Part shown: piece by piece, positions 1-23,676 of the stretch | Position numbering within the stretch: position 1 is the stretch's first letter | How the letters are laid out: the number at the start of each line of letters is the position of its first letter | IMG/VR virus record: IMGVR_UViG_3300027852_000167 | Coordinates: 1-23,925 of that record | From: a virus | DNA length: 23,925 bases | Strand: one strand, 5' to 3' | Position numbers and translations under genes: made by a program | Notes under the pieces: model-generated | Told to the model about the DNA's origin: nothing | The model's database searches: none | The model's input: the letters and a program-made list of their open reading frames with translations, nothing else

Positions 1-52
1 AGGGAAGGGCGCATAAAAATTCATTCCCCTGCCTTATTATGCGCCCTTCCCT
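1..52. repeat. Perfect 16-bp inverted repeat at the left edge
   Basis: Bases 1-16 (AGGGAAGGGCGCATAA) are the exact reverse complement of bases 37-52, with a 20-base spacer. The inner arm encodes part of helicase motif VI (QREGRII) of the giant gene; the outer arm would encode an atypical CALP continuation. Because the outer arm ends exactly at the first base of the window, a fold-back assembly or amplification artefact is as likely as a natural hairpin. Confidence 0.9.
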
Positions 53-6000: not shown

Positions 6001-7480
6001 CCTCAAGCTCTCTCCCTATTTTTTGAACTTCGCTTTCAGGCTGTTCCTCTTTCTTCGGCTGAACATACTTACCCTCAACCGATTCCCTAACAAGCCTGTC
6101 AAGATCGGCTAACTTTGGCCCAACTATGCGAGGGTCTTCGGGCATTGGCTGGGGCTTAAGCTCAATGCCCTTCTCTATGGTATCGAAGTCCGGTACAAGT
6201 GGCCCCTCAGCTTCTTTATCAATAAGTAGCTCGTTAATCTGATCTGTAATACCCATGCTAACGGCATCTTCACTCTTTGCCCATCCAGCAACCTGTTCTT
6301 TTGTAAGCTTTCCGCTTTCCAGCCCTGCTTTTAGTTCATCGAGTACAATTTTGGGCCTTGGGTCTTCCGCACCCGGAGGAGCTTCGTCTTTGTAGTCTAT
6401 TTCTTGTTTCCCGCCACTTGCAAGCCGGGCAACGCCCATCGGCGCACCAAAAAGGCCAGTCATAAGCGCCATAGCAAATCCGCCATATGCCGACTTAAGT
6501 GCGTCTTTAAGGGAGATTTCCGCTTCCGGGTCATAAAAAATTTGCTTTGATACTTGCCCCCCTGCGTATGAAAGGGCTTCTTGCCCGGCCTCTCCCGCTA
6601 CGCCTGCCGAATAAAATCCAAGACCTTTAAGAAGCCTTTTGGAGAAGTCTTGTGCTACATCATCAGCAACCTTGGCCCCTTTCAGTGTCTTCCATACGTT
6701 GCCTACAGCCTTAAAAACTGGTAACTCAGTTATCACTTCCCATTCCGCAGCCGTGATCCCATGTAATACCTGTTGTACCTGATTAGCCCCTTCGGATTTT
6801 GCTTCCTCTGCCGCTCCACCATAAGCGATAAGGCCAAGAGCAGTTGAAGCTGCAAGCGTACCACCAGATAACGCCCCTGCAACCACAGTCGCAATCTGAG
6901 GCATTGCTTCCAGTCCTGTTCCTGTAATCTTCTTAGGATGATACCAGGGGAGTGGGTCAAGGTCTTCTGATATGCTTTGTTGTTCGGAAATATCTTGTGC
7001 CCACTTAATACCTGCATCAAATGCTTTGTTTACGGATTCATCTATCTCTGGGTGATATTGTACTCCTAAAAGTTTCTTAACGGCCTCTCCAGGGAGAAGA
7101 TTTCTTGACGCATTATAAATATCTTTTGCCGACCGGAAAAGGCTTGCGTCTACATTTGCAACCCCGGCTGTTAAGGTTTGCCCTATTACTTGCCCCCATG
7201 TGGGAGTCGAACTAAGGCCTAACCCTGGCTCTTTTCTGGTCTCCTTAAACGCCTTCTCCCCGGCTTGAAATTGTTCTTCTGTAAAGGGAGCATCTTCTTC
7301 TAAGTGTTCCGATATGAACTTGTTTGTAATGGATGTTTGACGCTCTGCAGGGAGTGAAAAAAATTCATCATCACCATATTCACGGGAAAAATAATTTCCG
7401 ATAATCGCAGATTTTTTTTCATGGGGAAGGTCTGCAAATTCTTTGTCTTTAAAAAACCCTTGAACGATTGAATCCGGCAT
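1..7480 (-). CDS. Giant DarB-like polyvalent protein: N6-adenine methyltransferase plus SF2 helicase (3' end beyond window)
   Basis: The frame opens at ATG 7480 behind an AAAGGA ribosome site and has no stop down to the left edge, giving at least 2493 residues. Residues about 194-226 and 332-352 are hydrophobic. Residues about 470-560 are a charged, coiled-coil-like stretch with two LERERGA-type repeats. Residues about 922-1010 form a compact domain with the signature IRPYLRGWYEAVR-like (here IVRPYLRGWYEAVR). The methyltransferase spans about 1115-1420, with AdoMet motif I LEPSVGTGNF (1221-1230) and catalytic NPPF (1287-1290). The helicase has Walker A GSGKT (1921-1925), DEAH (2082-2085) and motif VI QREGRIIRQGN (2476-2486). 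This combination is known from phage P1 DarB and large polyvalent proteins, which are packaged, injected and protect DNA from restriction. Its place straight after ejection-type genes fits injection. Function in this phage is inferred. Confidence 0.9.
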   Translation of the reverse strand, partial: MPDSIVQGFFKDKEFADLPHEKKSAIIGNYFSREYGDDEFFSLPAERQTSITNKFISEHLEEDAPFTEEQFQAGEKAFKETRKEPGLGLSSTPTWGQVIGQTLTAGVANVDASLFRSAKDIYNASRNLLPGEAVKKLLGVQYHPEIDESVNKAFDAGIKWAQDISEQQSISEDLDPLPWYHPKKITGTGLEAMPQIATVVAGALSGGTLAASTALGLIAYGGAAEEAKSEGANQVQQVLHGITAAEWEVITELPVFKAVGNVWKTLKGAKVADDVAQDFSKRLLKGLGFYSAGVAGEAGQEALSYAGGQVSKQIFYDPEAEISLKDALKSAYGGFAMALMTGLFGAPMGVARLASGGKQEIDYKDEAPPGAEDPRPKIVLDELKAGLESGKLTKEQVAGWAKSEDAVSMGITDQINELLIDKEAEGPLVPDFDTIEKGIELKPQPMPEDPRIVGPKLADLDRLVRESVEGKYVQPKKEEQPESEVQKIGRELEETRARIAEQKKLLKPQLERERGARIGMQSELLKQQLEIERGAQVTPEEKEQLPALPKGQGVELVEPTVEPETILRKKQKSTLREDNAEDVTAKPQPEEEKTIPTKIIELTLDQSAANVPDINLDSEEISGAMLIYGVLHKHLSRHIDTLAGKTRFTSKDSLPAITKIINKNINFYVRKWESKEERQGAIKAFNYLKTKYAEITKPQPEQTHPKAINLNLTKEEQAVLDKISEAKNISKIEILPIKLKSGKDAFTIAETKKDGTVVEGHKNVKAEFLKRMLRKWVRAKIDPNDPNSLRWIDITKETQPTAVEDATESTKDVEPIPGVGGEDVPTAKSGNVGVNIFGNDVYEDEGGRYVIERSGETDFKSRATRQLGAKGEKIPSSSAQSLYMQGNKTYLTKEELDAFEGKDARSSKQDKPTKEAKVYGESNKVFTKDAADKARELLRKKLNQVNVGIDPEIVQAGIQLAGYHIEAGARSFSDYTKSMVEDLGEIVRPYLRGWYEAVRLYPGFDATGMTNYEDIPLTKDTQEVILKEEEEVQDETVRRASTGTPEGKRAGEIQPAKEARGADEVLPTQGRPGSEGERKPAKSRVAGLRSGGSRSKGPSDYTITSDDHLGQGGQKQKFHDNIEAIRLLEKIGDRQATPEEQSILVKYVGWGGIPQAFYQPGGRVSSGWETEAKELKGLLSNADYNPARRSTQDAHYTNQTIIDGIYKGLARLGFTRGGKILEPSVGTGNFIGLMPTKIRNASQITGIELDPLTSTIATKLYPKQNIVHSGFENVSLTPNSYDAAIGNPPFGSQSLFDAENRALKKFSIHNFFFAKSILALRPNGVLAMVVSSSMMDKIGDTQRTWIRQKAELLGAIRLPNNVFRKTAGTDVTTDIIFLRKREKGEKVTGHKWQGVKEVPGENNRWRINEYFAANPHMMLGTLAPNKLFPGEIVKGLYNAVPGLIANEGVDIAAALEEAIGNLPQNVFVEGQTIEEVQQADILVSKPGVARPYGYALDDEGRAVRRLPDKNGEQRYELALYGGEPVTGQRLERFKGLLGLREAIRKLITAEVADDPKMKEYRKFLNSKYDLFVKKFGYISSQINSQVLANDPTDLPLLRSLETDYDKGISKAVSKTTGKDQRPPSAKKATIFTKRVRVPYREAKTAENAKDGLAIVLREDGYISIPRISELVGKSEEDIEKDLRGVIYKNPESEIWETASVYLSGNVKQKLREAKQAAVENAEFASNVEELEKVQPKDVPAELISFRVGATWLPSDIYENFASEILNSPMSIQHLTEVGKWITQIRSTGASEYDTGRLSAAQLFEKMITGRPIALYTRDDNDNRVLDRESTEEANAKAKQIDSRFQEWALFHPTHRETITQSFNDNVNTTVEPTFDGSHMIFPGMGVINANVERDNQLRPHQGNAVWRLIQQGKGLLDHVVGSGKTYVAIATGLELKRMGLLKKPMYVVPNHLVAQWTKDFQTLYPGSNVLAIGKKDFSKKNRQEFLARIATGEWDAVLIAHSSFGFIKTPVDYTVGFYQEQISQLEEAIVVMRETEGRRSFTVKNMENAKDRLETKMRTLAGSVKEDVVDFSELGVDGLFIDEAHEFKNLFYTTTKSRVAGLGNPTGSQKAFDMFVKTQYIQEKNNNKGVFFLTGTPVSNSISEMFTMMRYLSYGKLKELGMAHFDQWANTFASTESDWEVDPTGTRYRLQAKLEFINLPGMLSLYKSFADIISNENLKEMSKESGKRWPIPEIEGGKPELVVAERSDLQKNFSEWIINRFDNMPSDPRIDNPLKATGEAMKAALDIRLIHPDLPDHPGSKVNLAVKNIFDIYKEWGPKKGAQLVFCDLSVPKKSRGKHAKEIKALQDERKRLESLLEKTHDDEKTKEIEAAYVKVSEKFEKYSPMELIAATSKFSVYDDVKSKLIKQGIPADQIAFIHDANTDAQKDVLFESVRAGRIRVLIGSTSKMGAGMNVQNKLVALHHLDAPWKPSELEQREGRIIRQGNEFLCALP

Positions 7481-9149: not shown

Positions 9150-9518
9150 CTATCTCCTTAATCCGCTCCCGTAATTTTCTAAAAAAGCATCAAATTTCTT
9201 TCGCCTTAGATTAAGAGCGTCCCGCTCCTGAAGCCCTTGAATCCCCTGCAATGCAAGATTGCCGACACTCAAACCTGTGGCCCAGGGAGCAACCTTCTTT
9301 TCTTTAGAGAACTGGTCTTTTGCTAAATCAAGGCGTTCCCTGGCAAGCCCAAACCGTGCCTTTCTGTTTTCTGCGCCGACACGCTCCATTGATTTACGCC
9401 CAATGTAATCATTGAATGCGCCTGATATATCAACATCGCCGGGTTTCATCCCCCGTGCTTGGGCCTGTAATTGCATTGGTTTGTAGACATCTCTTAAAAA
9501 GTTTTTAAACATTGTCAT
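9150..9518 (-). CDS. Small helical virion protein, 122 aa, possible ejection protein
   Basis: The ATG at 9518 shares one base with the stop of the tail-nozzle gene (TAATG), so the two are probably translationally coupled. The protein is mostly charged helix. Residues about 50-75 (ENRKARFGLARERLDLAKDQ) resemble helical segments in the next two genes, followed by a small neutral stretch (ATGLSVGNLALQGIQGL). The C-terminus is basic. Short helical proteins of this kind with a middle small-residue segment are common among internal virion proteins that are ejected. No named family was recognised; another reading is a tail-completion or assembly factor. Confidence 0.7.
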   Translation of the reverse strand: MTMFKNFLRDVYKPMQLQAQARGMKPGDVDISGAFNDYIGRKSMERVGAENRKARFGLARERLDLAKDQFSKEKKVAPWATGLSVGNLALQGIQGLQERDALNLRRKKFDAFLENYGSGLRR

Positions 9519-12500
9519 TATTTTCTCGCCCCCTGAACTACGTCAAGCCTTTCGACATGATATAAAAAACTCGCCGATAGAGGTTCAAACCCATCTGTAA
9601 CGTCATCTGTTGAGATTTCAAACTTGAATTGATGTCCTATACCAATTTTATTTAATCGTTGGGTATGGTGTGAAATGCGCTTCCCTGAAGCATACATGGG
9701 TATATCCGTTAAACTTGTCCAACTTGTATCCCCATCGGTTCTGTGGTAAGCGGAAATATCATCATCACTATCGCCCTTAGACTCGCAAATAAACTTCATA
9801 TAGTCTAGCCTTGCTTCTTCCCAGAGAGACCCGGAGGGAAGGATTTCCGAGAAAGTAACGCTTTGAGCAATGGTCGTGCCATCAAAATCATTCCCATTTT
9901 CATTGCGCTCAAGATAGCCTGTGTCAAGGCCAAGATATGTGTGCTGCTGTCCGTATGTGTCTTTTACCGGGAAACCACTTTGTGGATATGCCCCAGGTAC
10001 TTTCTTCGTCCACCTGTTCCGCATTATATCATAGATTAACCATACGTTGTTAGCCGTTTGTCCACTTCCTGAAGGGATTAAAAGGTTGTATTCTTTGTTT
10101 TGTTCGTCAAAGAAGCCTATGGCCCTGTCTGCGTATGTGTAATCAATACAAAGAGAGTCGTTGGTGTCAAAGTATGGTTCTACTCCTTTTACCGGGACAA
10201 GAGCGGTTAAGTCGAACATGACCGGGCCACCATAAGACAACCAGAAAAGAACATTCTTTGATACACTCCCAATATACCCAACTTCCCCGGAGGCCATTGT
10301 TTTGGGAGCAATACACCCTATGGTGCTACTTACCTGCTTTTGCGTAAACTGTCCTGTTCCAGTCACTGCGTAGCCATCAAGAACGTGAGTCTCGTCTTGG
10401 GTACACAACACGGCCACATTATATATGGACGACCCGAGCCTATTATATAAACTCTTGCCTGCTATAATTTCACCAGAACTTACATTAAGAATTGTCGAGT
10501 CCGGCCCGTTAAAAACATCAGCCTTGCCGGAAGCGGAGATTCGTACTTCCGAAGGCCCCCCCTCTCGTCCACATAAAAGCGTTCTGTTTTGGAATGCAAG
10601 CGACACGTTATATGGCTGTATTGTGTCCGGGTATTCAATCCCCGACACAAGGTAAATTTCAACCTCGCCACTTAAGCTGTTTGTCCAATCGAATTTATAA
10701 TAATAAAACGGCCCGTCTCCGTCTATTGTTTGTGGGAATTCCACGTTAAATCCTATCGGTGGAAACGTGATAGTTCCGCTTTTAGCAAAACTCTTTGACC
10801 CTTCCACAGTATCGTCTTTAAAAACAGGCATTAATACCCAATCATCTCCGTCATAATAATACGCAGAGAGAATGCAGTTATTGTTGTTCTCGTGTTCGCC
10901 GATAAAATTAAGATCAAACCCCTGCTGTGGATTGACGAAGCCTAACAATAGGTGATCCGCAGTCCCAAGGCTGTCCAAAACCGCAAAGGTTGAGACGCTA
11001 TCATCGTTTACTTCAAGGGTGTAATCTGAATACGTGCTATTGTCATACTTCTTAAATGCCGCCACCACGCTTTCCCTTCCCGACCATACATTTTTAATAC
11101 TCTGCCACGGAGCATCGAGGGTGACATAATCAAGTTTTTTACTTGCGGCGACCGCGCTAACCGCAACCCGATAAAAATAAAGCGACTGGCCCTCAATATA
11201 CTTTACTTTAGCCGAACCGTCCGTGCTGGTAAAGGTAACGCTCCCATCCTGTGCCAGACTTTTCCCACCACTGCTTGTTCCGTCTGAAAGGCTTGATACC
11301 TCCACCCATGTCGAACCAGACCAATAATGAACCGACATTGTGCTTGTGGACGTATTCGCCGTGTCAACATATATTTTAAACCCCTCAAGTGGCCTTGGGC
11401 TTCCTATATAAAAATATGCCTCTGTTGTCGAGGTGGAATATGGGAGTGCCGGCGGGTCAAAACCTTCCGTGTGCCTTGCTGAACTTGACACCCTAAATTC
11501 GTCCATTGCGCCATCGAAAAAATCCGTGCCTTCATGCCCTATCTCAACAACACCAGTATAATCAGCACACCTGTCCGAGTCTGATAAGTATGCCCTTTGT
11601 ATGCCGTTTACAAAGATATACCAATTGTTACTATTTTCAACCAACTCAATATGAAACCATGACCCCGTTGTAATAACGCCCGTGTCTGTGGAGATCGAAA
11701 CCTCTGTGAACGGCGACCCAACATTGTCAACTGTTACATCAAACCTTACACTTCCGCTTGACGTAACCCAAAGTTTCGCCCAGTCATTGCCTGTCCCTGC
11801 TGTTTCCTGGTAATATATAGGCTCAACACTATCAAGGGCGTCACAGTAAATTTGAGCATCTATAGTGAAGGCCCCTGCGGAAAAATCAAAATCGGCATGA
11901 TCTGGAATGGTCAAATAGGCATCTGTGTCGTTAAAAACAGCTCCATATGACCCCATAGCTTTATATGTGGTGCTGAAAGTTACCTTAGACGCTACGTTGG
12001 TAACAGTATGTGAGGAAGTTGCGTCCGTTACGTTATTCTCCAGGTGAAGCAGTAGCATAACATTTGCGTCTATTCCCGCCCCTGAAACAGTATGAATAGT
12101 CGCTTCATTTTCGCTGTCTGACAACGAGTTAGATAGTTGTTCGGAATAATCATAGGAGAAAGAGTCGTCAGGTGCATAGTTAATGAAAGAAGATACTTTT
12201 AGCTCGTCTCCGCCCCATATCATAGACTCTGCGCCGTTGCAATACGTGACGTTGGCCTCTGGCGCAATAGAAAATAAACCGATCCCTGCCCCCGTAGCGT
12301 CCGTATGAAGGGCTGTCGCCGCAAAGTCCCCGGCTGAAGGGATAGCTGTTTCATTCTGCAAAACCTGAGAAGCGGTTAAGCCTGAGTTATACGCCTGCAC
12401 AAGAACATGGCTTTCCGAGGGCTGATCTTTCGTGAAGTGAAATCCGTTGTGTATTTTAAGGTAAGTAGTAAGTGCTGTGCTGTTAATCTTTGAAAAACCG

Positions 12501-12721
12501 GATACGCCTTTTAACCCCTGGTCACGGTATCGAAGATTCTGAATGTCTGAAAAATCCCCCGGCTTTACTATGAGTGGGTCATGGGTAGGGTCCCACTTGC
12601 CGGAGAAGTTCACATTGTGCTGCAATAGTTGTGTGTCTCCCCCTGCTTCTTGGGAGTGAGACAAGAGGGGACACAGAGCCAGTATTAGAATGAAAGATAT
12701 AAGTAGAAAGATTCTTCGCAT
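9518..12721 (-). CDS. Tail-nozzle-type (P22 gp10-like) structural protein with signal peptide and LamG insertion, 1067 aa
   Basis: The ATG at 12721 overlaps the preceding stop (TAATG) and lies eight bases after AAGG. Residues 1-23 are a classic Sec signal peptide (Arg-Arg, long Leu/Ile core, SHS before Gln24). Residues about 30-80 have the opening style of P22 gp10-like stabilisation proteins: a target-free 'DP..V..G...DIQNLR..D.GLK...G' pattern. Residues about 222-412 are a LamG/concanavalin-like domain ending in the usual MDEFRVSSSARH. Two similar beta-sandwich units follow at about 445-520 and 601-700, both with a GxxW...DGT/DDT..G.KS pattern. The C-terminal part (LLCGREGGPSEVRIS, later NVWLIYDIMRNRWTK) is propeller-like, as in nozzle proteins. 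The tail role is well supported; why it has a signal peptide is not known. Confidence 0.8.
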   Translation of the reverse strand: MRRIFLLISFILILALCPLLSHSQEAGGDTQLLQHNVNFSGKWDPTHDPLIVKPGDFSDIQNLRYRDQGLKGVSGFSKINSTALTTYLKIHNGFHFTKDQPSESHVLVQAYNSGLTASQVLQNETAIPSAGDFAATALHTDATGAGIGLFSIAPEANVTYCNGAESMIWGGDELKVSSFINYAPDDSFSYDYSEQLSNSLSDSENEATIHTVSGAGIDANVMLLLHLENNVTDATSSHTVTNVASKVTFSTTYKAMGSYGAVFNDTDAYLTIPDHADFDFSAGAFTIDAQIYCDALDSVEPIYYQETAGTGNDWAKLWVTSSGSVRFDVTVDNVGSPFTEVSISTDTGVITTGSWFHIELVENSNNWYIFVNGIQRAYLSDSDRCADYTGVVEIGHEGTDFFDGAMDEFRVSSSARHTEGFDPPALPYSTSTTEAYFYIGSPRPLEGFKIYVDTANTSTSTMSVHYWSGSTWVEVSSLSDGTSSGGKSLAQDGSVTFTSTDGSAKVKYIEGQSLYFYRVAVSAVAASKKLDYVTLDAPWQSIKNVWSGRESVVAAFKKYDNSTYSDYTLEVNDDSVSTFAVLDSLGTADHLLLGFVNPQQGFDLNFIGEHENNNNCILSAYYYDGDDWVLMPVFKDDTVEGSKSFAKSGTITFPPIGFNVEFPQTIDGDGPFYYYKFDWTNSLSGEVEIYLVSGIEYPDTIQPYNVSLAFQNRTLLCGREGGPSEVRISASGKADVFNGPDSTILNVSSGEIIAGKSLYNRLGSSIYNVAVLCTQDETHVLDGYAVTGTGQFTQKQVSSTIGCIAPKTMASGEVGYIGSVSKNVLFWLSYGGPVMFDLTALVPVKGVEPYFDTNDSLCIDYTYADRAIGFFDEQNKEYNLLIPSGSGQTANNVWLIYDIMRNRWTKKVPGAYPQSGFPVKDTYGQQHTYLGLDTGYLERNENGNDFDGTTIAQSVTFSEILPSGSLWEEARLDYMKFICESKGDSDDDISAYHRTDGDTSWTSLTDIPMYASGKRISHHTQRLNKIGIGHQFKFEISTDDVTDGFEPLSASFLYHVERLDVVQGARK

Positions 12722-12993
12722 TAAAACCGCCTTAACCCAGGAGACCTTAAGGTTGGTACAGAATAATATCTCCCTTTACGTTTAATTATCGTATTGCCAA
12801 CGCCTTCTTCACCTTTTTTTGTTAAATGCCATGTTTTGTGCTTCCGGCCTTTTAAAATCATGCCCGTTGTCGGTTCCCTGCTAGGCCAGTGTCCTGTTTT
12901 GTCAGGCTTTATGCCATGCCGCTTGGCTGTTTCATAGTCGTAATCTTCACCCTCTGGATCAAACCCTTTGAATGGTCCTTTTCTCAACGGCAT
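12721..12993 (-). CDS. Small phage protein with GHWPSR motif, 90 aa
   Basis: ATG at 12993 behind GAGG; the stop overlaps the start of the nozzle gene by one base. The protein is basic and hydrophilic. It carries motifs I associate with a small conserved phage family of unknown role: FDPEGEDYDYETAKRHGI, GHWPSREPTTGMILKGRKHK and KRKGRYYS. There is no membrane segment and no cysteine cluster. Lying between the DUF5662-like gene and the nozzle gene, it may be a virion or tail-assembly accessory, but that is only an inference from place. The function is unknown. Confidence 0.75.
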   Translation of the reverse strand: MPLRKGPFKGFDPEGEDYDYETAKRHGIKPDKTGHWPSREPTTGMILKGRKHKTWHLTKKGEEGVGNTIIKRKGRYYSVPTLRSPGLRRF

Positions 12994-13004
12994 TTCTTAC
13001 TTCC

Positions 13005-13466
13005 TCACTCAAGCAAGTCTTTAGTGTTCATTATAATTTGTGTAAGCTCTTTCCCAAGCGTGAACCTTGTCCCGTTATGTTCTACCGAAGTAACAAAGCA
13101 TCCGTCTTCATGCCTGAGAGTTGCCGCCTTCCAATCACACACCATTTCGACAATATCAACAAGGTTCATATTCTCTAAGCCTAAAACATCGGGGTGATGT
13201 CTATTGTTTTGGTAGTGGTGGTCAAGCGCTGGTCGCATATTCTTTAAATGTTCCTTATATTCGGCACTCCCGTAAGTAGTATGCTTTAATTTTGAAGTAT
13301 ACTCAGAGAAAATACTAACTTCGGGAAACTCGGTTTTTGACCTGTCGTGATCAACCCCCCTACACCTCAAGGCACAGCAAATTTTTTCAATTAACTTTTG
13401 CACTTCAGCAATATGCTTTTGAGTTTCAAGGTTTGTTGTTAACTCTTCGTTAGTAAGCTCTTTCAT
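13005..13466 (-). CDS. DUF5662-like, HD-type putative metal-dependent phosphohydrolase, 153 aa
   Basis: ATG at 13466, seven bases after GGGG in AAAAAGGGGAAG. The sequence shows the residue set I associate with DUF5662: HD at 40-41 followed by RSK and EFP, then DHHYQNNRHHPD (82-92) and an EMVCDWKAATLRH block (107-119). The paired histidines and aspartates suggest an HD-superfamily-like metal site. Members occur in phages and bacteria; substrates are not established to my knowledge. It is not an obvious virion component and sits as an accessory gene between structural genes. Assignment is by motif memory, not by a search. Confidence 0.75.
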   Translation of the reverse strand: MKELTNEELTTNLETQKHIAEVQKLIEKICCALRCRGVDHDRSKTEFPEVSIFSEYTSKLKHTTYGSAEYKEHLKNMRPALDHHYQNNRHHPDVLGLENMNLVDIVEMVCDWKAATLRHEDGCFVTSVEHNGTRFTLGKELTQIIMNTKDLLE

Positions 13467-13467
13467 A

Positions 13468-13617
13468 TTACTTCCCCTTTTTCACAACCTTAAACAATAT
13501 TTCCTTAACCCCATCCACTATAATATCATCCCATTTTACAGGCGTGACCTTTACCACCTTCTCAACTACGTAAAGGCCAAGTAAACAATATTCCCAATTT
13601 GCAATAATCCAACCCAT
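13468..13617 (-). CDS. Small membrane-type protein, 49 aa
   Basis: A 50-codon frame from ATG 13617 to TAA 13468 fills exactly the space between the second adaptor and the DUF5662-like gene. Its ATG shares one base with the adaptor stop (TAATG), and AAGGG lies upstream. Residues about 3-20 (WIIANWEYCLLGLYVVEK) can form a membrane or amphipathic helix. They are followed by VTPVKWDDIIVDGVKE and a Lys-rich tail. Small phage membrane proteins with a 'EKVVK.TPTKWDD' style sequence are common and sometimes lie near lysis genes; a holin role is possible but unproven. Confidence 0.7.
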   Translation of the reverse strand: MGWIIANWEYCLLGLYVVEKVVKVTPVKWDDIIVDGVKEILFKVVKKGK

Positions 13618-14555
13618 TATCTTGTTATCCCTTCGGAGTCTGCTCCCCTGGTGAAATAGTCCACCCTGAGGCGATCCAATAATTGTTGATATTCCTTCAT
13701 TAACATTCCACTATATGATACCATGCCATCCTTTAAAAACCCCTGTGCCGCAACATACATTATGAGTGCATCGTCATACAATGCAGGCAATGGTATGTTT
13801 GCGTCTGAAGGCACTCTGTACGGCCTTGCTATGATATAAGCGATAATAGTATTGCCTGCGCTTGAGCTATTGGCTAACGGGTAGTAGCCTATTTGATCTC
13901 GCCACTCAAAGAAGTGTGTCGGTTCACTCACACCTTCCTCGTGTCCTGCATTTTGATAGCTCCCCCGATCCAGCCCCTTGTATCCGGCTGCGGTTGACTG
14001 AGCTATTAAGATGTTGTCTCCGTTTTCCTGTAGAAGTGCGTCTCCGTTTTCCTGTAATAAATTAAAGGTCACGGTAGGCAACCTGTATACTGCGGCACTC
14101 ACACTCAAATATTCCATACTAATGTCGTAAAACAACTGATCGTCAACCAGGGTGTCCGTTTCCGTTGTCTCAAGACAATTTGTCCTTGCCGCAATATCTT
14201 CTATCCCTTCGTTCACCCACACAAGCATTTCCGCATCTGTAAAGAAAACTGCCGCAGGTTCATTAAGTAGGTATCTTGCCCTGGTGATTATCGTTGCGGC
14301 TGTAGTTTGTGACTGGTGGTTAGGTGCGCCATAAACCCTCCAAGAACCATTGGTTTGTTTTATATGGATGAGGTCTTCTTGAGTGAAGTTAACACCATTA
14401 CCACCAGAAACAGTTTCCCAAGGGAATAAAAGAGCCTTTCCGTCCCACACATTGTTCCCTGTTGCCGAGTCTACATAGTAGATTGTGGCGTAGAGGGGAG
14501 AGGCGAGAACGCCTAACATAAATGCAAATAGCAATATTAGTCTTAGTTTTCTCAT
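13617..14555 (-). CDS. Head-tail adaptor-type protein 2 with signal peptide and beta-helix-like leader, 312 aa
   Basis: I choose ATG 14555, not the in-frame TTG at 14585 inside the tailspike gene; GGAG lies 13 bases upstream and coupling to the tailspike stop (14564) is likely. Residues 1-23 are a Sec signal peptide ending SPLYA. Residues 24-77 (IYYVDSATGNN, PWETV, NFTQEDLIHIK) resemble the first strands of secreted parallel beta-helix proteins. Residues about 85-312 match the neighbouring 232-aa adaptor: TIITRARYLLN, FTDAEMLVWVNEGIEDIAAR, NIPLPALYDDAL, LDRLRVDYF. That block is typical of phage adaptor proteins joining portal and tail. An inserted LLQENGD tandem lies at 166-182. The adaptor role is inferred from family style; the leader is the oddity. 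Confidence 0.75.
   Translation of the reverse strand: MRKLRLILLFAFMLGVLASPLYATIYYVDSATGNNVWDGKALLFPWETVSGGNGVNFTQEDLIHIKQTNGSWRVYGAPNHQSQTTAATIITRARYLLNEPAAVFFTDAEMLVWVNEGIEDIAARTNCLETTETDTLVDDQLFYDISMEYLSVSAAVYRLPTVTFNLLQENGDALLQENGDNILIAQSTAAGYKGLDRGSYQNAGHEEGVSEPTHFFEWRDQIGYYPLANSSSAGNTIIAYIIARPYRVPSDANIPLPALYDDALIMYVAAQGFLKDGMVSYSGMLMKEYQQLLDRLRVDYFTRGADSEGITR
14017..14056. repeat. 24-nt tandem repeat encoding LLQENGD units
   Basis: The unit starting TCTCCGTTTTCCTGTA at 14017 repeats at 14041 with identical first 16 bases. On the coding strand it gives LLQENGDN after LLQENGDA, an eight-residue tandem inside the second adaptor that the first adaptor lacks. Confidence 0.85.
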
Positions 14556-14563
14556 AAAATTTT

Positions 14564-16480
14564 CTACGCTCCACCATCTACCCAAGTGCCTGAGACTGTT
14601 TCAAAATACCAATCATATACCCCACTTGCTGTTTCAAATGCCCAAAACCTTATACTGTCCCCTATTGCTGCTGTTGCGTTGAGGTTTGAAACTTTGTCAC
14701 CATCGTCCAGGGCTGTCCCATCAAGGTAGATTTTGTCGTTTGCCCCTGCTTTAATGTTGAAAATCACCCCAGGAACTTCGGCCAATGAACAAACTGAATA
14801 CATACCTTCAGCGGCAGTAGGCAAGGTAAGAGTTATCGTGCCACCTCCGCCCCCGGCTTGCCCAAGGTTTGTGATAACGGAATTATATAGTTGCCAAGCC
14901 AACAGGGTAGCGTTTGCAGGCTTTGCAACCTGAAAAACTTTATTTGATACCGTATCGTTGTTGTAGTAGGCATACGAAGCGTCCGAACCGAAAGTTGGTG
15001 TTCCGGTATAGTAATTTCCTAAAAACCAGAACCGCCATTGAGCGCTAAGATCATCGATCATCTCGACACCATTCCACGGTGTTCCGAACTGGTTCCAGTT
15101 GAGTGTTATATAAGGCTGCTGTCCAGCAAGAACCTTAACAATGCTTGTGGTAAAATTTATGGAAGTTCCCGTGAAATGATTTCTATCTATATTTGTAACG
15201 CCTAAACAATTAGTCTCATTGTAGATTACACAATTTTCCGAGTTAGTTACTTTGTTTAATTGCTCAAAATAGTTATGTATTATTTTCGTACCCCAGGCGT
15301 AATTCAAGTGTATCGCTTTATCGTCTAGCTGTTCAAAGATATTATCATCAATTACATTGTTTTGGCAATATACCCCGGCGACTCCCTGCATATCAATAGC
15401 CGCCCCTGACATATAATAAAAGGTATTGCTTCGTATTGTATTTTTATGGTTCGCTGACCCTGCGCCTCCTAGATATATTCCAGAGATTAACTTTTGAGCG
15501 CTATTTGTATTCCCAAAATAACATTCTATCCATCGAACAATATTGAAATAACCGTAACATCCGTATTTGCCAGGGGCATTAAATCTGCATCGGAAAAAAT
15601 CAACATTCGCAACTGCTTTGCCGGAGGCTTCAGTGAATATCGCCGCATACGTACCGGAGTCGTATGGCTGGAAGGTTAGGTTTGAGACAGTAACGTATTT
15701 CCATGCATTTGCCCGTGTAGTAAGAATTTTAATAATATGACTTGTTGTCCCCTTTAATACGGTTCCGTCAATGCTTTCCCCTTCAATATCCACACCGTCA
15801 AGAGGATTCCAATCGTTAATTACGTATGTTCCTGTAGGGATATGCAACTTACCAAGCCTACGGATTGTAGCCCCTGACCAAAGAGGAAGGCTTGTTTGCG
15901 CCGCTGTGAACTCTGCGGTCATATCGGTTGTGCCTGGAGTCGTGTTCGCCCCCCAATGTTCCGGGTAGACAGTCCCACCCACCGTAAAAGCGACTTTGCC
16001 TGTTCCTGTTAGTGTATATATTTCCTGCCTGCGACCTGCGGCTATATGTTCAGGAGAATAAACCGTAAGTGTTATTCCGGTAGAAACGGCTATCCTCGCC
16101 CCCTTCTGTACCATAAGGGTAATATTTAAGGGGATGGTTTCGTTCGTTCCGAAAGTATAATCTGTTGTAGCACTCCCATGATGAGAGAGCATAATCGTAG
16201 CCTCATTACTCCCTATAGCGTCAACAAGGTCTTTAACGCTGCGCCCCGATCCTACAACTCCTTGATCCGCCTCCGCTGAATCCGCAAAGTATGTCAAGGC
16301 TACAAGGTTTGACACCTCTACCTTCATTGTTGTGTCAGGGGTCAAGGAAACGTCTACAATCGGGATAACATCATTTGAGGCAGGGGACGTTAGTTCTCCC
16401 AGGTTTATTATTTCAGCATCCGCAGCAAACAAAAGCGTTGGGCATAAAAGAATAAGTAAAAATAGAGCCAGTCGTTTCAT
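14564..16480 (-). CDS. Tailspike-like parallel beta-helix protein with signal peptide, 638 aa
   Basis: ATG at 16480, seven bases after GAGG; two bases separate it from the upstream stop. Residues 1-22 are a strong Sec signal peptide (MKR, Leu-rich core, FAADA). Residues about 24-60 (INLGELTSPASNDVIPIVD) look like the N-terminal attachment segment of phage tail fibres. YPEHWGA then TTDMTAEFTAAQTSL (about 170-195) and IPTGTYVI (about 213-220) are the classic entry to pectate-lyase-3-type beta-helices. Residues 220-500 give the repeating N.I..N.F pattern of helix rungs (NTIRSNTFYY, NNVIDDNIFEQ, KIIHNYFEQL, TNIDRNHF). The C-terminal 130 residues, beginning with a Gly-rich linker, form a separate beta domain. 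It probably binds or cuts host surface polysaccharide; the enzyme specificity cannot be told. Confidence 0.85.
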   Translation of the reverse strand: MKRLALFLLILLCPTLLFAADAEIINLGELTSPASNDVIPIVDVSLTPDTTMKVEVSNLVALTYFADSAEADQGVVGSGRSVKDLVDAIGSNEATIMLSHHGSATTDYTFGTNETIPLNITLMVQKGARIAVSTGITLTVYSPEHIAAGRRQEIYTLTGTGKVAFTVGGTVYPEHWGANTTPGTTDMTAEFTAAQTSLPLWSGATIRRLGKLHIPTGTYVINDWNPLDGVDIEGESIDGTVLKGTTSHIIKILTTRANAWKYVTVSNLTFQPYDSGTYAAIFTEASGKAVANVDFFRCRFNAPGKYGCYGYFNIVRWIECYFGNTNSAQKLISGIYLGGAGSANHKNTIRSNTFYYMSGAAIDMQGVAGVYCQNNVIDDNIFEQLDDKAIHLNYAWGTKIIHNYFEQLNKVTNSENCVIYNETNCLGVTNIDRNHFTGTSINFTTSIVKVLAGQQPYITLNWNQFGTPWNGVEMIDDLSAQWRFWFLGNYYTGTPTFGSDASYAYYNNDTVSNKVFQVAKPANATLLAWQLYNSVITNLGQAGGGGGTITLTLPTAAEGMYSVCSLAEVPGVIFNIKAGANDKIYLDGTALDDGDKVSNLNATAAIGDSIRFWAFETASGVYDWYFETVSGTWVDGGA

Positions 16481-16482
16481 TT

Positions 16483-17181
16483 TTAATCCTCTTTTGGTTT
16501 GTCTCCGAAGTCCATGCGATACCTGTCAAGCTCAGAAACATATTGAGACATAAGTTGTCCTGATTTATTAAACCTTCGCGCCTTTACCTGCGACTTTGCA
16601 ATGATAAACAGGGTCAACGCTCTGTCGTAAATTGCCGGAAGTGGGATATTCTCAGTGGATAATATATTTTCAGGCTTGTCTATGAAGTGTACTTTTACAG
16701 TGTCGCCTATGACGTTTGCCCGTGGTAATGGTGAAATAGCAATCTTTCCGTCCCACTCGGCCCACCCAACTGGTTCATTTGTTGTGCTTAAAGACATTAG
16801 GTTTTGCCCAACGTCTTTATATTCAATCTTCTTCAACCCCTTGAACGTAGTTGAGGAGGTTTCGTAGGCAACTGAAGTTATTATGAGGTAGTCAGCCCTC
16901 AAAGGGTACTCAAGTTGGGTTTCTACTAAGTAAATGTCTTCTGTGGCCTCAAGGCATCGTGTTCTTGCCACAATATCTAAAAGGCCATAGTTCAGCCAGA
17001 CAAGAAGCTCTGCATCACTCCAAAACCGCTTTGAAGTGTCTGAGGAGGTGTCATTGAGGATGTACCTTGCGTTGGTAATAATCGTGCTGGCAAGGGTTTT
17101 TGAGGTTTGGAGAGTCCCGGCACATACTGTATGGCCAATCAAGAAAAGCAAAAAGATGATGGTGTAAATGTATTTCTTCAT
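16483..17181 (-). CDS. Head-tail adaptor-type protein 1 with signal peptide, 232 aa
   Basis: ATG at 17181, seven bases after AGGG. Residues 1-21 are a Sec signal peptide (MKK, YTIIFLLFLIG core, TVCA before Gly). No other ATG lies before the mature domain, so the leader is not a start-choice artefact. From residue 31 it carries the helical adaptor pattern: TIITNARYILND, WSDAELLVWLNYGLLDIVARTRCLEATE, then beta strands with GWAEWDGKIAISPLP and a C-terminal helical part NIPLPAIYDRALTLF and VSELDRYRMDF. It is clearly paralogous to the 312-aa protein on the other side of the tailspike gene. Adaptors of this kind form the ring under the portal. The lipobox is imperfect (HTVC), so it is probably not a lipoprotein. 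Confidence 0.8.
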   Translation of the reverse strand: MKKYIYTIIFLLFLIGHTVCAGTLQTSKTLASTIITNARYILNDTSSDTSKRFWSDAELLVWLNYGLLDIVARTRCLEATEDIYLVETQLEYPLRADYLIITSVAYETSSTTFKGLKKIEYKDVGQNLMSLSTTNEPVGWAEWDGKIAISPLPRANVIGDTVKVHFIDKPENILSTENIPLPAIYDRALTLFIIAKSQVKARRFNKSGQLMSQYVSELDRYRMDFGDKPKED

Positions 17182-17184
17182 TGT

Positions 17185-17298
17185 TTAACCCTGAATTAAG
17201 GTCAGCTCTATGACTCCACCCTTTGAATTCCCGGCGTTGGTGACGTTTGGTGTTAATGTCTCCTTAATTGTCCGTATCCGGTAAATTAAAAGGTTCAT
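17185..17298 (-). CDS. Possible 37-aa small ORF between adaptor genes
   Basis: A frame from ATG 17298 to TAA 17185 overlaps the end of the 275-aa gene by 35 bases and fills the otherwise empty 82-base gap before the 232-aa gene. The latter part (LTPNVTNAGNSKGGVIELTLIQG) reads like a protein C-terminus. The ribosome site is weak (G-run 13 bases upstream), while a good AAGGAG at about 17267 has no standard start after it. It may be a remnant of a lost gene instead. Confidence 0.3.
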   Translation of the reverse strand: MNLLIYRIRTIKETLTPNVTNAGNSKGGVIELTLIQG

Positions 17299-18091
17299 TT
17301 GATGGGAGCAACCCCCCTTCTATTTGCGAAAGAATTGATAACCATATTTCAGAATTAATTCTGAGAGAAGAGGACAATCCATTAAAGTTCTTTGAGTCGC
17401 TTGGCGGTATGTGAATTAATTTAATTACACCAAAGGCAACAAGCCCCTCATGATACTCCGCAGGAATATCGGTTACAGCATCAGGCATTCCAACATAATC
17501 AACAATCAAGTCGTAGGTAAAATCTGGATCATCAATAACAATGTTCCTCTCCCTTGGATACCACAAACGATCATTTTCTTGTGTTGTAAAAGCAAGGGGA
17601 GCACGGTGAATCTTAACGGTATCGCTTGGTTCTTTATATGCCTTCCCCCCGGAAGTATATGCCGCAGTCCCCACCGAACTATTTAAGCTGTAGGAGTCTG
17701 CGTCTACATAAGTTATTTTCCAAGTCCCGTTGGCTGCTGTATTGCCTGCCACACTATGAACAACCGTTATTTCGTCAGATGATCTTTCATGCGCTGTTTC
17801 GGTTATGACAATCGGGGTAGCGTTAGTCGCTCCGGTTATGTCCCCGGCATTGTCTTCCATATCCCATACATTCAAAATGGACGCACAATCAGAGGGCCAC
17901 GAGAAAATATGTGTATTTGAAGAAAGGGAAATCCGCTTATTAAAAAAGGAAGGGGCCACTTTTTTTATTGCCAGCCCCAGGAGGGTAACACCCCTTAATA
18001 TAGTGGCGGTAATCATAGTATCATTTACAGAAGTCGCCCGAATTTCTTTTATCTCTCTACGAATGATTGTTATTATCTCAGCTTCAGTCAT
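17264..18091 (-). CDS. Head-tail connector/adaptor-type protein with inserted beta domain, 275 aa
   Basis: ATG at 18091 overlaps the upstream stop (ATGA) and follows GAGG by seven bases. Residues 1-50 are adaptor-like helices (EAEIITIIRREIKEI, TMITATILRGVTLLGLAIKKV). Residues about 84-150 (ITGATNATPIVITETAHE, GNTAANGTWKI, YSLNSSVGTAAYTSGG) match a beta module often found in phage tail proteins and labelled E1_FCCH-like. The chain then returns to adaptor-like strands (PRERNIVIDDPDFTYDLIVDYV) and C-terminal helices. No signal peptide, unlike the two following adaptor paralogues. Position after the head genes fits the first ring below the portal. Inferred from fold pattern and place. Confidence 0.7.
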   Translation of the reverse strand: MTEAEIITIIRREIKEIRATSVNDTMITATILRGVTLLGLAIKKVAPSFFNKRISLSSNTHIFSWPSDCASILNVWDMEDNAGDITGATNATPIVITETAHERSSDEITVVHSVAGNTAANGTWKITYVDADSYSLNSSVGTAAYTSGGKAYKEPSDTVKIHRAPLAFTTQENDRLWYPRERNIVIDDPDFTYDLIVDYVGMPDAVTDIPAEYHEGLVAFGVIKLIHIPPSDSKNFNGLSSSLRINSEIWLSILSQIEGGLLPSNEPFNLPDTDN

Positions 18092-19263: not shown

Positions 19264-20232
19264 TTATGAAGGCTCGGTCAAGTTTGTGTGCCGGACGTGT
19301 GCTTTCCTGTTTTTACAAACAAGCTGCCCAATCCAACGAATGTTAGCCACAAGACTATCCGGCTGTTCTTTGTCGTATTCCCATTTGGGTTTGGTGAACT
19401 GATATTTTTTGTGGGTTTTAACCGAAAGATACATAAGGTTTAACCCATCGCAATACCCGGAAGTTTGCTTGTCGTCTGCGACTATGGGAGCGCTATCGAA
19501 CATGATGTTTGCAAACCCGGCATTTACCAACCCAACATCTTTATACCTGGCCTGTAGCTGTAGCGTTCGCTCAAACCCATCCTTAAGGGTGTCCGTGGTG
19601 ACATACAGGTTGGGCTTGTCGGTATTGTTCTGCCCGATATTCGGCGTTCTCCTCATTGTTTGCAACGCCTTAAAAGAAATCGCCCCTGCCGTGGTTATTA
19701 CATTCGCCTTCCAGTTGGCCATATCGTCTTCCGCAATAGCTCCATAAGCGGTCGATGTGGTTGTGCTAAATAAATTCCCAAGCCCAAGGAAGCTATTTGA
19801 GTCTGCCGCCGAAGCGTAAATATCGGTTCCCATCTTCCGGCGAACGGTTTTCCTTATGTTATTGACCTTCCCTTGTACAAGATCAATTTTTGCGGTATCC
19901 CCTGCAACCTGAACCCTATCATTAAGGTCGATGCTGTTCGAGGCGTAATATCCACCCCACCGAAACCTTGCGTTGTTAAAGATCACAACCTTGCTTTGGG
20001 GAATTTTAGTTGTGTTCCCGTATGAGCCGTTGTTACTTTGAGCATACTCAAGGATCACCCTGATTTTCTCTCCGCCATCCACTAGATCGCCGGGTCCGAA
20101 AAGGTTATTCTCCATATTCCCATTGCCCATTAACTTATGCAAGAGAACATTATCCTGAAAAAATATATCGGTACTCGACTTCTCGCAATAGTCATCACTT
20201 AAAGCCTGTACCTCTGTGTCTGTAAGCGCCAT
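19264..20232 (-). CDS. Major capsid protein, probably HK97-fold, 322 aa
   Basis: ATG at 20232, eight bases after AAGGAG. The N-terminal arm (MALTDTEVQALSDDY...FFQDNVLLHKLM) is followed by a strand-rich region (GEKIRVILEYAQSNN, ARFRWGGYYASNSI) and a helix with VNNIRKTVRRKMGTDIYA resembling the spine helix of HK97-fold capsids. Later come ISFKALQTMRRTPN, a TTDTLKDGFERTLQLQAR helix, AGFANIMFDSAPIVADD and a closing beta strand. The length, the order after scaffold-type and portal genes and the strong ribosome site are what is expected of the major capsid protein. No exact match is claimed. Confidence 0.85.
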   Translation of the reverse strand: MALTDTEVQALSDDYCEKSSTDIFFQDNVLLHKLMGNGNMENNLFGPGDLVDGGEKIRVILEYAQSNNGSYGNTTKIPQSKVVIFNNARFRWGGYYASNSIDLNDRVQVAGDTAKIDLVQGKVNNIRKTVRRKMGTDIYASAADSNSFLGLGNLFSTTTSTAYGAIAEDDMANWKANVITTAGAISFKALQTMRRTPNIGQNNTDKPNLYVTTDTLKDGFERTLQLQARYKDVGLVNAGFANIMFDSAPIVADDKQTSGYCDGLNLMYLSVKTHKKYQFTKPKWEYDKEQPDSLVANIRWIGQLVCKNRKAHVRHTNLTEPS

Positions 20233-21398: not shown

Positions 21399-23363
21399 TC
21401 ACTCCTCTCTTTCAACATGATCCGGTGGCATTTCACCTTGGCCGCTTCTTGGTGTTCCCGCAGCAACGGCTTTTGTCCCATCCTTATTCTTTCCAGTCCC
21501 CGGCCCTCCTTGTGCCTCCATTAACATTTGCTGAAGCTCCATTGCCGCTTCTTCCGGCAGTCCGGCTTGTACCAGTATTTGAAGAGCTTGGCCTAATTGC
21601 CCCTCTCCAACCCGTTCGATAACTTGTTTCCATCCAGGGTACCCTGTGTTTTCCAATAACGCTTGACGGTCAATAGCCCCCATTGAAAAGTATTTCTCCG
21701 ACTGTGCGGCCACTTGAAGGCTTGTTTTTGGAAGAGTGCTGCCAGACTCAACAATATATCCGAAATCCCTTCCAACGTAATCACTCGGTCGCATCATTAC
21801 AGCTTCGCCGTTAACGTCCACCGGCTCTGTGTTAAAGTCGAAGTTTTGAGATAATGCAAGGTAACACTTCCCTCTTTCTTCAACAAGATAGTCAACCGCT
21901 TCCTTTTTGTGCTGTAGAAGTGTCGCATTGCGTTCTTGTAAGGCGACAATAGCAGAGGCGGCCACTACACCTTTTGGGGCGACCCCTCTGTCTGCATCCT
22001 CTATTTGATACGTTCGATCAAAGAACCTGACAATTAAGTCCAGGATATTAAAAAACGTAGCCGGGAGATTCGGGACCGGAAGGTATCGTATCCCCTGTGA
22101 GTGCATTGTTGAAGTGGGCCATAAAACAAGGGACGGTTCATTGTTCACCATCTCTGCTGTTACCCCTGAGTCCTTCGGAATAATCAGCGTTGGGTACATA
22201 GCCCTTTCTGCGTAGGCAATTAAACGGCTAAAAAGCGTATCAATCTTATACAGTAACGGCCCCACTTGTTCGGAAGCTGAAAACCCCCACAAAGTAGTCG
22301 AGTCCTCATAACTGTTCGCTTTCCAAAAAGGGAGCCTGTTATAAAAATATGTATTTCTTATCAAATCAATAGAAAGTTCGTGATTTATGTTTGGGTTTTT
22401 TATGTCCTCTAAAACAATCGGGTCTAGCTTTTCCCCGCTCTTTGTTCTCCCAGACCCCGTTAGCGTAATAACCCTGATCCCACCAGGATATTTCGGCTGC
22501 GTTATAGATTTTATAAGCTGATCGCCGTTTTCGTCAACAATAGGTTCGCCACCTTCGTCAACAATAGGGGTTTCTATCGTTTCGGTAGAATTATCCCTTA
22601 CCCACACCTCAACGATTAACACCATCCCCAAGATTGTGCCGGCGGCCTCTTCCCCTTTCTGCTCGATGTCATTATATGTGCCGGAGTATTTAGCGCTATC
22701 GCCTAGTCCGCTTGGAACTGGCCTTACCTCACTCCTAGTGTCTTGCAATAAGCTATATGTATCATCAGCCTCTAACCCGGAAACGTTAAATAAGGCTTCC
22801 GCTGCGTCAACGGACTCGGGGTAAGCATTGCAGATATATGGACACTCAAGGCCGATGTCCTCGTAATTACCTGGAGCCGGGAAAAAAGAATACGGGTCAC
22901 AAACAGTAATGTCTGGTTTCTGTTGTGTTGTATTGAAGGCCCCTTTTTCAACCGTGATACCATACTTTTCCATCTTCAGAATTGAAGTGTTCAGTTTTCT
23001 TTGCTGCCTTGTGTCGCTCCACCACTTTTTGGTCTTTGATGTGAAGGCGGCTGCCGCTCCGTCATTGTCGCCCAAAGAGTCAACCACTTCGGCAATAGGT
23101 TCTTGCGCTGTCAGGTTTGCCTTGGTGCGTTCAATGTTTGCGAAATATAAATTAACAGTAACCTTTTTCTTGTCCTTTTTCCCTTTGTTTTGCCAATGAT
23201 CGCCCCGATATAGTTTATAGTTCTCTCGCCACCTATCAGGGAGCATCAAGTCTTCTTTTGCGGATTTAGCAATCTCAAAAAGGTTCCACGCCCATTTCCC
23301 AACATCTTTGTGGCCTTTAGGCGGGATGTTGACAAGGGAAAATTCTTTATTTTTGGCTACCAT
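21399..23363 (-). CDS. Portal protein (P22-like family), 654 aa
   Basis: I choose ATG 23363, eight bases after GAGG, rather than the in-frame TTG at 23387; this leaves a 17-base overlap with the upstream gene. The N-terminal part shows an RWRENYKLYRGDHW helix and NLYFANIERTKANLTAQEP, the usual opening of P22-type portals. FFPAPGNYEDIGL and a wing region follow, then a long helical stem and crown: PLLYKIDTLFSRLIAYAERAMYP, GVVAASAIVALQERNATLLQHKKEAV. The C-terminus is Gln/Gly-rich and polar. The protein forms the dodecameric DNA gate at one capsid vertex. Length and flanking genes (scaffold, capsid downstream) fit. Confidence 0.85.
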   Translation of the reverse strand: MVAKNKEFSLVNIPPKGHKDVGKWAWNLFEIAKSAKEDLMLPDRWRENYKLYRGDHWQNKGKKDKKKVTVNLYFANIERTKANLTAQEPIAEVVDSLGDNDGAAAAFTSKTKKWWSDTRQQRKLNTSILKMEKYGITVEKGAFNTTQQKPDITVCDPYSFFPAPGNYEDIGLECPYICNAYPESVDAAEALFNVSGLEADDTYSLLQDTRSEVRPVPSGLGDSAKYSGTYNDIEQKGEEAAGTILGMVLIVEVWVRDNSTETIETPIVDEGGEPIVDENGDQLIKSITQPKYPGGIRVITLTGSGRTKSGEKLDPIVLEDIKNPNINHELSIDLIRNTYFYNRLPFWKANSYEDSTTLWGFSASEQVGPLLYKIDTLFSRLIAYAERAMYPTLIIPKDSGVTAEMVNNEPSLVLWPTSTMHSQGIRYLPVPNLPATFFNILDLIVRFFDRTYQIEDADRGVAPKGVVAASAIVALQERNATLLQHKKEAVDYLVEERGKCYLALSQNFDFNTEPVDVNGEAVMMRPSDYVGRDFGYIVESGSTLPKTSLQVAAQSEKYFSMGAIDRQALLENTGYPGWKQVIERVGEGQLGQALQILVQAGLPEEAAMELQQMLMEAQGGPGTGKNKDGTKAVAAGTPRSGQGEMPPDHVEREE

Positions 23364-23676
23364 TGTTGCATCCTCTTTGATGTCCAACCAGTGCTATTTT
23401 ATGTGTAAACGACCTGCCGCATGAACATTGGAAGCTCTCTATCACCCCCATTAAAAACCCCTCAGAATCGGTCAGCCATGAACCACAAAAAGGACAGGTT
23501 ATGTTCTCGTATGCGAGGGCCTCTGTTGGTGTCTCAGCATCACAGAAAGACCACCCCCGCTCTTTAAAGTCGGGTTTTAATTCAATCATGCCGCCGTGAA
23601 CTGGCCGTTTTGGGTCAAAGTCTTTTGTGGTTTGTAGCGTAATTTCCTGGCAGTTTTGACATTTGATGTCTGACAT
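23347..23676 (-). CDS. Cys-rich zinc-binding-type protein, 109 aa
   Basis: The ATG at 23676 overlaps the upstream stop by one base (TAATG). Cysteine pairs appear at 6/9 (KCQNCQ), 61/64 (CPFCGSWL) and 84/86 (QCSCGRSF), with His99 and Cys103 near the end (GHQRGC). This pattern points to two zinc sites. No catalytic motif or membrane segment was seen. Between a small membrane protein and the portal, it could be a regulator or packaging accessory; its function is unknown. Confidence 0.75.
   Translation of the reverse strand: MSDIKCQNCQEITLQTTKDFDPKRPVHGGMIELKPDFKERGWSFCDAETPTEALAYENITCPFCGSWLTDSEGFLMGVIESFQCSCGRSFTHKIALVGHQRGCNNGSQK

Follow-up and report, generated by a model that had tools for sequence, protein, structure and literature searches.

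What does it mean when tail proteins of a tailed phage begin with signals for export from the cytoplasm? To our knowledge, the tailed phages studied so far assemble their tails in the cytoplasm. The question is raised by a virus fragment from IMG/VR (IMGVR_UViG_3300027852_000167; hereafter the window, meaning the whole 23,925-nucleotide stretch that was analysed), in which an initial annotation had noted Sec signal peptides at the starts of four neighbouring virion proteins. The listed genes lie on the minus strand: first come portal, scaffold-like protein, capsid and small proteins, then proteins of 236 and 275 aa, then adaptor 1, the spike and adaptor 2 and, after two small genes, the nozzle, ejection-type proteins and an open frame of 2493 aa. 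The features on which the analysis rests are the following.

21399..23387, minus strand: portal protein, no leader, a control (phrog_156, 6e-11; alignment).
19264..20232, minus strand: major capsid protein, no leader, a control (phrog_9953, 8e-28).
17264..18091, minus strand: leaderless adaptor-fold protein of 275 aa, the proposed first adaptor (AlphaFold model).
16483..17181, minus strand: adaptor 1, an SU10-type tail adaptor of 232 aa (PF24175, AlphaFold model, leader).
17181-17119, minus strand: Sec leader of adaptor 1, 21 aa (leader anatomy).
14564..16480, minus strand: probable beta-helix tailspike of 638 aa (weak Beta_helix and NosD matches, leader, location between the adaptors).
16480-16424, minus strand: Sec leader of the tailspike, 19 aa (leader anatomy).
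13617..14555, minus strand: adaptor 2, SU10-type, 312 aa (PF24175, alignment, leader).
14555-14487, minus strand: Sec leader of adaptor 2, 23 aa (leader anatomy).
9518..12721, minus strand: nozzle-type tail protein of 1067 aa (Laminin_G_3, homology to nozzle-position proteins, leader).
12721-12653, minus strand: Sec leader of the nozzle, 23 aa (leader anatomy).

The 2493-aa open frame (window 2-7480) adjoins the ejection-type genes and is incomplete, as the contig end cuts through it. It holds Eco57I methylase, ResIII/SNF2 and helicase C domains, and is perhaps a DarB-like giant protein that is injected along with the DNA.

With predicted cuts marked by a slash, the four leaders read MKKYIYTIIFLLFLIGHTVCA/GTLQ in adaptor 1, MKRLALFLLILLCPTLLFA/ADAE in the tailspike, MRKLRLILLFAFMLGVLASPLYA/TIYY in adaptor 2 and MRRIFLLISFILILALCPLLSHS/QEAG in the nozzle. 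Each has two or three lysine or arginine residues near its start, no acidic residues, a 9-residue core with a mean Kyte-Doolittle value of 3.2-3.5, and alanine or serine at position -1. This textbook-like anatomy bears out the presence of Sec signal peptides on all four proteins, from starts at 17181, 16480, 14555 and 12721 on the minus strand. Leaders were detected with a rule-based caller written for this analysis. On E. coli K-12 it was positive for 0 of 56 proteins of the cytoplasm, 10 of 14 secreted proteins and 6 of 18 from the inner membrane. Of the 19 window genes 4 are positive, and these are exactly adaptor 1, the spike, adaptor 2 and the nozzle. The calibration counts exclude chance, and the caller alone does not tell a cleaved leader from an anchor. 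The starts themselves are also as first described, with an SD motif or coupling before three of the four: an SD-like GAGG precedes the spike, an SD-like AAGG with overlapping start the nozzle, and adaptor 2 is closely coupled. Adaptor 1 has no clear SD, and no internal start with a preceding SD motif was found near its cut. Codon 33 of the nozzle is a TTG preceded by GGAG, a possible leaderless start.

Both adaptors were assigned as such in the initial annotation, and both score well above the curated cut-off of 27 for PF24175 (SU10_adaptor), at 49.3 bits for adaptor 1 and 48.9 bits for adaptor 2, where the match spans residues 84-296. An AlphaFold model of adaptor 1 (mean pLDDT 86) aligns, over residues 28-232, with positions 2-212 of the phage GP4 virion adaptor (Z 16.7), and matches the adaptors of A4 (Z 16.0), SU10 (Z 13.2) and, similarly, N4. 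Residues 1-27 fall outside the fold common to the solved virion adaptors. On sequence and predicted fold, adaptor 1 is thus an SU10-type adaptor. The 275-aa protein encoded just upstream has no leader, and its model (pLDDT 78) also adopts an adaptor fold, with Z scores of 10-11 (9nwi, 11.1; 9k09, 11.0; 8jov, 10.8). We propose, from this modelled fold, that it is a first adaptor that stays with the head. Residues 81-153 of the same protein form an inserted domain that matches part of the ubiquitin-activating E1 enzymes of eukaryotes (Z 10.4; 73 residues at 1.7 A; 23% identity). Identity as a ubiquitin E1 was rejected, the match being limited to this insert. Pfam E1_FCCH also matches a leadered 1270-aa protein in contig L179, and the insert is probably a small beta domain common in phage tails.

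In adaptor 2, approximately 60 inserted residues (14486-14307; TIYYVDSATGNNVWDGK...) separate the leader from the adaptor domain. They resemble the beginnings of beta-helix proteins, secreted or from phages, as though a leader had been captured together with the start of its passenger. A similar two-part adaptor is encoded at 1990-3333 of contig L100. The spike has weak Beta_helix and NosD matches. The window nozzle carries a LamG-like domain (Laminin_G_3, residues 265-416), and its matches in named phages fall mainly on this lectin region. Its homologues in 12 further leadered contigs are encoded by the gene that follows the adaptor, with identity of up to 32% over 1117 columns. We call it nozzle-type, as the case for an SU10-like nozzle is made by gene position and by a weak match between one relative and a "stabilization protein".

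When adaptor 1 and the nozzle were each used alone to scan IMG/VR, no confirmed relative came up. Profile searches of the same database with the capsid, the adaptor and a family that we call VGG, after its ERVLTVGG block, yielded approximately 150 loci; adaptors of the L023 type made the alignment too diverse to serve as a scan query. Leadered adaptors are found in 14 further distinct contigs with the same tail module (L007, L073, L100, L101, L102, L105, L107, L109, L110, L111, L113, L114, L115 and L116), into which we folded L103 (the same stretch as L102), L106 (a near copy of L105) and L112 (a near copy of L116). Contigs L100 and L102 have two leadered adaptors each, as does the window. All of these adaptor leaders end at a single alignment column, immediately before a conserved mature start, [GAS]SQQTSST. 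Mean pairwise identity is 20% for the leaders and 56% for the first 21 mature residues. The comparison of leaders across related phages called for at the outset shows that leaders persist and diverge in sequence while the cut point stays constant. Among 39 curated leaders from the window and its relatives, a basic n-region, a hydrophobic core of 8-15 residues and small residues at -3 and -1 are found, as expected for Sec signal peptidase I; position -3 is mostly alanine or valine and -1 is alanine, glycine or serine in all 39, a count that is partly circular because many of the sites were picked as cut sites. For 16 adaptors the conserved mature block fixes the boundary independently, and every one of them has alanine or glycine at -1.

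The mature sequence also exists without a leader. The adaptor of L064 starts M-ASQQTSSTTAS, at the predicted mature end of the others, and a fibre shows the same switch, being A/GSSIHGATSLTGGTSGCLD with its leader in L110 versus MAANGYGATALTGGTSGCLD without one in L064; adaptor, nozzle and fibre of L064 are all leaderless. In the VGG family, whose gene often lies directly after the capsid gene and several members of which continue as a beta-helix, a leader is present in 12 distinct members and absent from 30. Most of the leaderless ones begin one or two residues before the ERVLTVGG-type block, as in M-GERILSVGG versus the leadered A/GERVVTVGG. VGG leaders are not always paired with adaptor leaders, as L023 has a leadered VGG protein and leaderless adaptors.

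Leaders on adaptor and nozzle, by comparison, go together. In each of the 13 contigs that show both genes and have a leadered adaptor, the nozzle has a leader too, and often so do the fibres beside it. The nozzle is leaderless in L064, L022, L024, L030, L035 and L047, the adaptors of which are likewise leaderless. Portal, capsid, scaffold, leaderless first adaptor and ejection proteins are unleadered in the maps examined. Overall, leadered genes make up 48 of 202 in contigs with leadered adaptors versus 4 of 283 in those with leaderless adaptors (Fisher P 7e-16), the former count being approximate since neither the L110 nozzle (MKKLILSIFLVAALCLPGFS/QELPQ) nor the L107 adaptor is picked up by the caller, whereas a few membrane-protein calls are taken in. 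On the adaptor tree, leader state needs 3 changes versus 15 for shuffled labels. Leadered adaptors cluster, and because L064 is nested inside leadered branches with starred support, its leaderless state is best read as a loss. Some deeper forks are weakly supported and a group comprising L022-L030 also falls near the leadered rows, so that the tree is compatible with a single gain and two losses as well as with repeated gains. Capsids of three different families (phrog_9953, phrog_334 and phrog_1357) accompany the leadered module, indicating that it travels as a unit.

A second type of export signal occurs nearby. An RRxFLK motif followed by a mildly hydrophobic stretch, the mark of a Tat leader, begins proteins in L007 (5947), L111 (5141), L113 (9289) and L176 (18882-19163), the last being a 93-aa protein of the related contig G010 that begins with MNRRIFLKKLG. 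Two of these are small genes, of which the one in L007 (5947-6309) lies just upstream of the portal and the one in L176 in the head-gene region; a family match was sought for both products and none was found. Sec and Tat leaders have in common only that they are export signals, which argues strongly against a purely structural role of the hydrophobic starts. G010 also encodes an amidase endolysin and proteins with lipoprotein-like leaders, a gene content that fits release by lysis of a diderm host. Adjoining its endolysin gene is a gene for a caspase-domain protein (L177 6602-7459, minus strand; PF00656, E 2e-30).

Leaders on the outer tail parts of these uncultured short-tailed phages, and not on their head parts, suggest tail assembly outside the cell interior, for which no precedent is known among tailed phages. 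Working signal peptides are an economical account of leaders that diverge in sequence, keep their anatomy and cut, and come and go together, and judging from these patterns we consider it very probable that this is what they are. The data agree poorly with chance, wrong starts, tolerated captures or a structural use of the hydrophobic segment. The explanation that we favour, with modest confidence, is that the leaders work and are cleaved, and that the outer tail parts would be exported, trimmed and joined to DNA-filled heads near lysis. Actual export and cleavage of the outer tail parts are what we infer from the sequences; periplasmic assembly, closure by the first adaptor and joining at lysis are hypothetical. 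Under this explanation the adaptor or adaptors, nozzle, spikes and fibres would be made as precursors and carried across the inner membrane by the host Sec machinery, with Tat perhaps serving a few neighbours. Signal peptidase would trim them and the periplasm would hold them. Heads would meanwhile be assembled and filled in the cytoplasm, where the leaderless first adaptor would probably close the portal, and heads and tail parts would meet when lysis opens the inner membrane.

Several points weigh against this explanation. Cytoplasmic tail assembly is the established route in the tailed phages studied so far, an exported adaptor could not reach the cytoplasmic portal before lysis, filled heads would need a stable seal until the outer tail comes, and translation from the TTG with its GGAG at codon 33 of the nozzle could yield a product that lacks the leader. 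On export, outer tail and heads would stay apart until the membrane opens. Heads and tails of T4, lambda and P22 are known to join when lysates are mixed, making joining at lysis feasible, and with a leaderless adaptor encoded ahead of the leadered ones the head could have its own closure. Disulfide formation was considered as a general reason for export and rejected, as the mature adaptors hold 0-2 cysteines, the two-domain L100 protein excepted.

Of the three readings offered initially, membrane-associated or extra-cytoplasmic assembly is the one that fared well, its export part being well supported, while tolerated capture and uncleaved anchors lost ground. A neighbouring reading, which we regard as unlikely, is that the leaders hold tail proteins at the inner membrane, where tails are built on the cytoplasmic face and heads are docked, the tether being removed or kept. 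T4 proheads begin on the membrane, and the very hydrophobic leader cores (mean 3.3 versus 2.0-3.0 in six E. coli leaders) suit co-translational membrane targeting. However, cleavage by signal peptidase I takes place at the outer face and would set the cleaved parts free outside, a tether needs no small residues at -1 and -3 and yet these are present throughout, and Tat-type leaders on neighbours fit badly with simple tethering.

Somewhat less likely still is a partial export, in which spikes, fibres, nozzles and adaptors sent outward coat the cell surface or the periplasm and block superinfection, and a leaderless pool arising from internal starts or inefficient targeting builds virions in the cytoplasm. 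Receptor binding by free tails would be a plausible use, and the TTG of the window nozzle could be a source of such a pool; adaptor 1, however, offers no SD-preceded internal start near its cut, a single gene copy would have to serve both uses in every contig, and there is no evident reason to export adaptors in order to block superinfection.

The initial suggestion of uncleaved anchors used at infection, by which hydrophobic N-termini are kept in the virion and insert into the membrane, would suit leaders on tail parts that near the host membrane, given that short tails must span the envelope. We find it improbable, in view of the constant small residue at -1 in the 16 independently bounded adaptors, the relatives that begin at the mature residue and the Tat-type leaders nearby; an adaptor buried beside the portal is also a poor site for membrane segments, and fibres and the VGG protein are leadered too. 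Least probable, by a small margin, is that the leaders stem from secreted proteins of the host and persist as functionless passengers, as the secreted beta-helix-like start of adaptor 2 would suggest, since they are retained across the clade with divergent sequence and constant anatomy, and adaptor and nozzle keep or lose them together in every contig.

The hosts of these phages were sought through their relatives. Capsid relatives occur in MAGs labelled Cloacimonadota, Desulfobacterota, Omnitrophota and Methanoperedens, and an adaptor match was sought in five of these genomes and not found. Searches of 395 genomes from the phylum of L093 gave two weak matches, and of 237 from that of L095 none. 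The capsid of the Methanosarcina virus MetMV is 40% identical to that of the window. MetMV (L002, MK170447) has nearly the same set of structural genes as L097, from a Methanoperedens MAG, and L098, from a Peptococcaceae MAG, making host labels in this group doubtful.

Somewhat short of an even chance, in our estimate, is the fuller proposal of a virion made in two compartments, with heads in the cytoplasm and Sec-exported, trimmed tails in the periplasm that are joined only at lysis, in a widespread uncultured group. If true, the lineage breaks the rule of cytoplasmic tail assembly, how filled heads close and join becomes the question, and tailed phages gain a new mode of morphogenesis in which a signal peptide separates head and tail until release. 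A leader followed by [GAS]SQQTSST on an SU10-type adaptor is a sequence mark by which such phages can be found, and the starts of leadered tail genes should not be trimmed in annotation.

Neither the adaptor nor the nozzle of the leadered clade was found among the cultured phages searched, and no earlier report of Sec-leadered tail parts in tailed phages was found in the full-text literature searched, the coverage of which lies mostly outside subscription journals. Virion proteins with cleavable Sec signal peptides that are joined at or beyond the inner membrane are familiar from the filamentous phages (Inoviridae), as in M13 pIII and pVIII. Sec-dependent assembly of filamentous phages has been described (PMC4823517), but filamentous virions, which lack head and tail, leave by extrusion through the membrane, whereas the window encodes a portal, a capsid and tail adaptors and, unlike filamentous phages, the related contig G010 encodes an endolysin. 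Tailed phages also use host export for o-spanins, SAR endolysins and exclusion lipoproteins, in common with the window proteins, but these act on the envelope and are not known as structural tail parts. The tail of Escherichia phage SU10 (Kuravirus) has adaptor gp11 and nozzle gp17 (PMC9509320), and the short tails of SU10, GP4, cyanophage A4 and N4 are alike with the window in adaptor family PF24175, fold, portal-adaptor-nozzle order and nearby fibre genes. The first residues of the solved short-tail adaptors align at residue 28 of the window adaptor, leaving no counterpart to the leader, and the window lineage additionally encodes an adaptor-fold protein with no leader, ahead of its one or two leadered adaptors. 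By analogy, the lineage would work like the filamentous phages, in which coat proteins carry Sec leaders, while being a tailed phage with SU10-type adaptors, and the new element is the leader on SU10-type tail parts.
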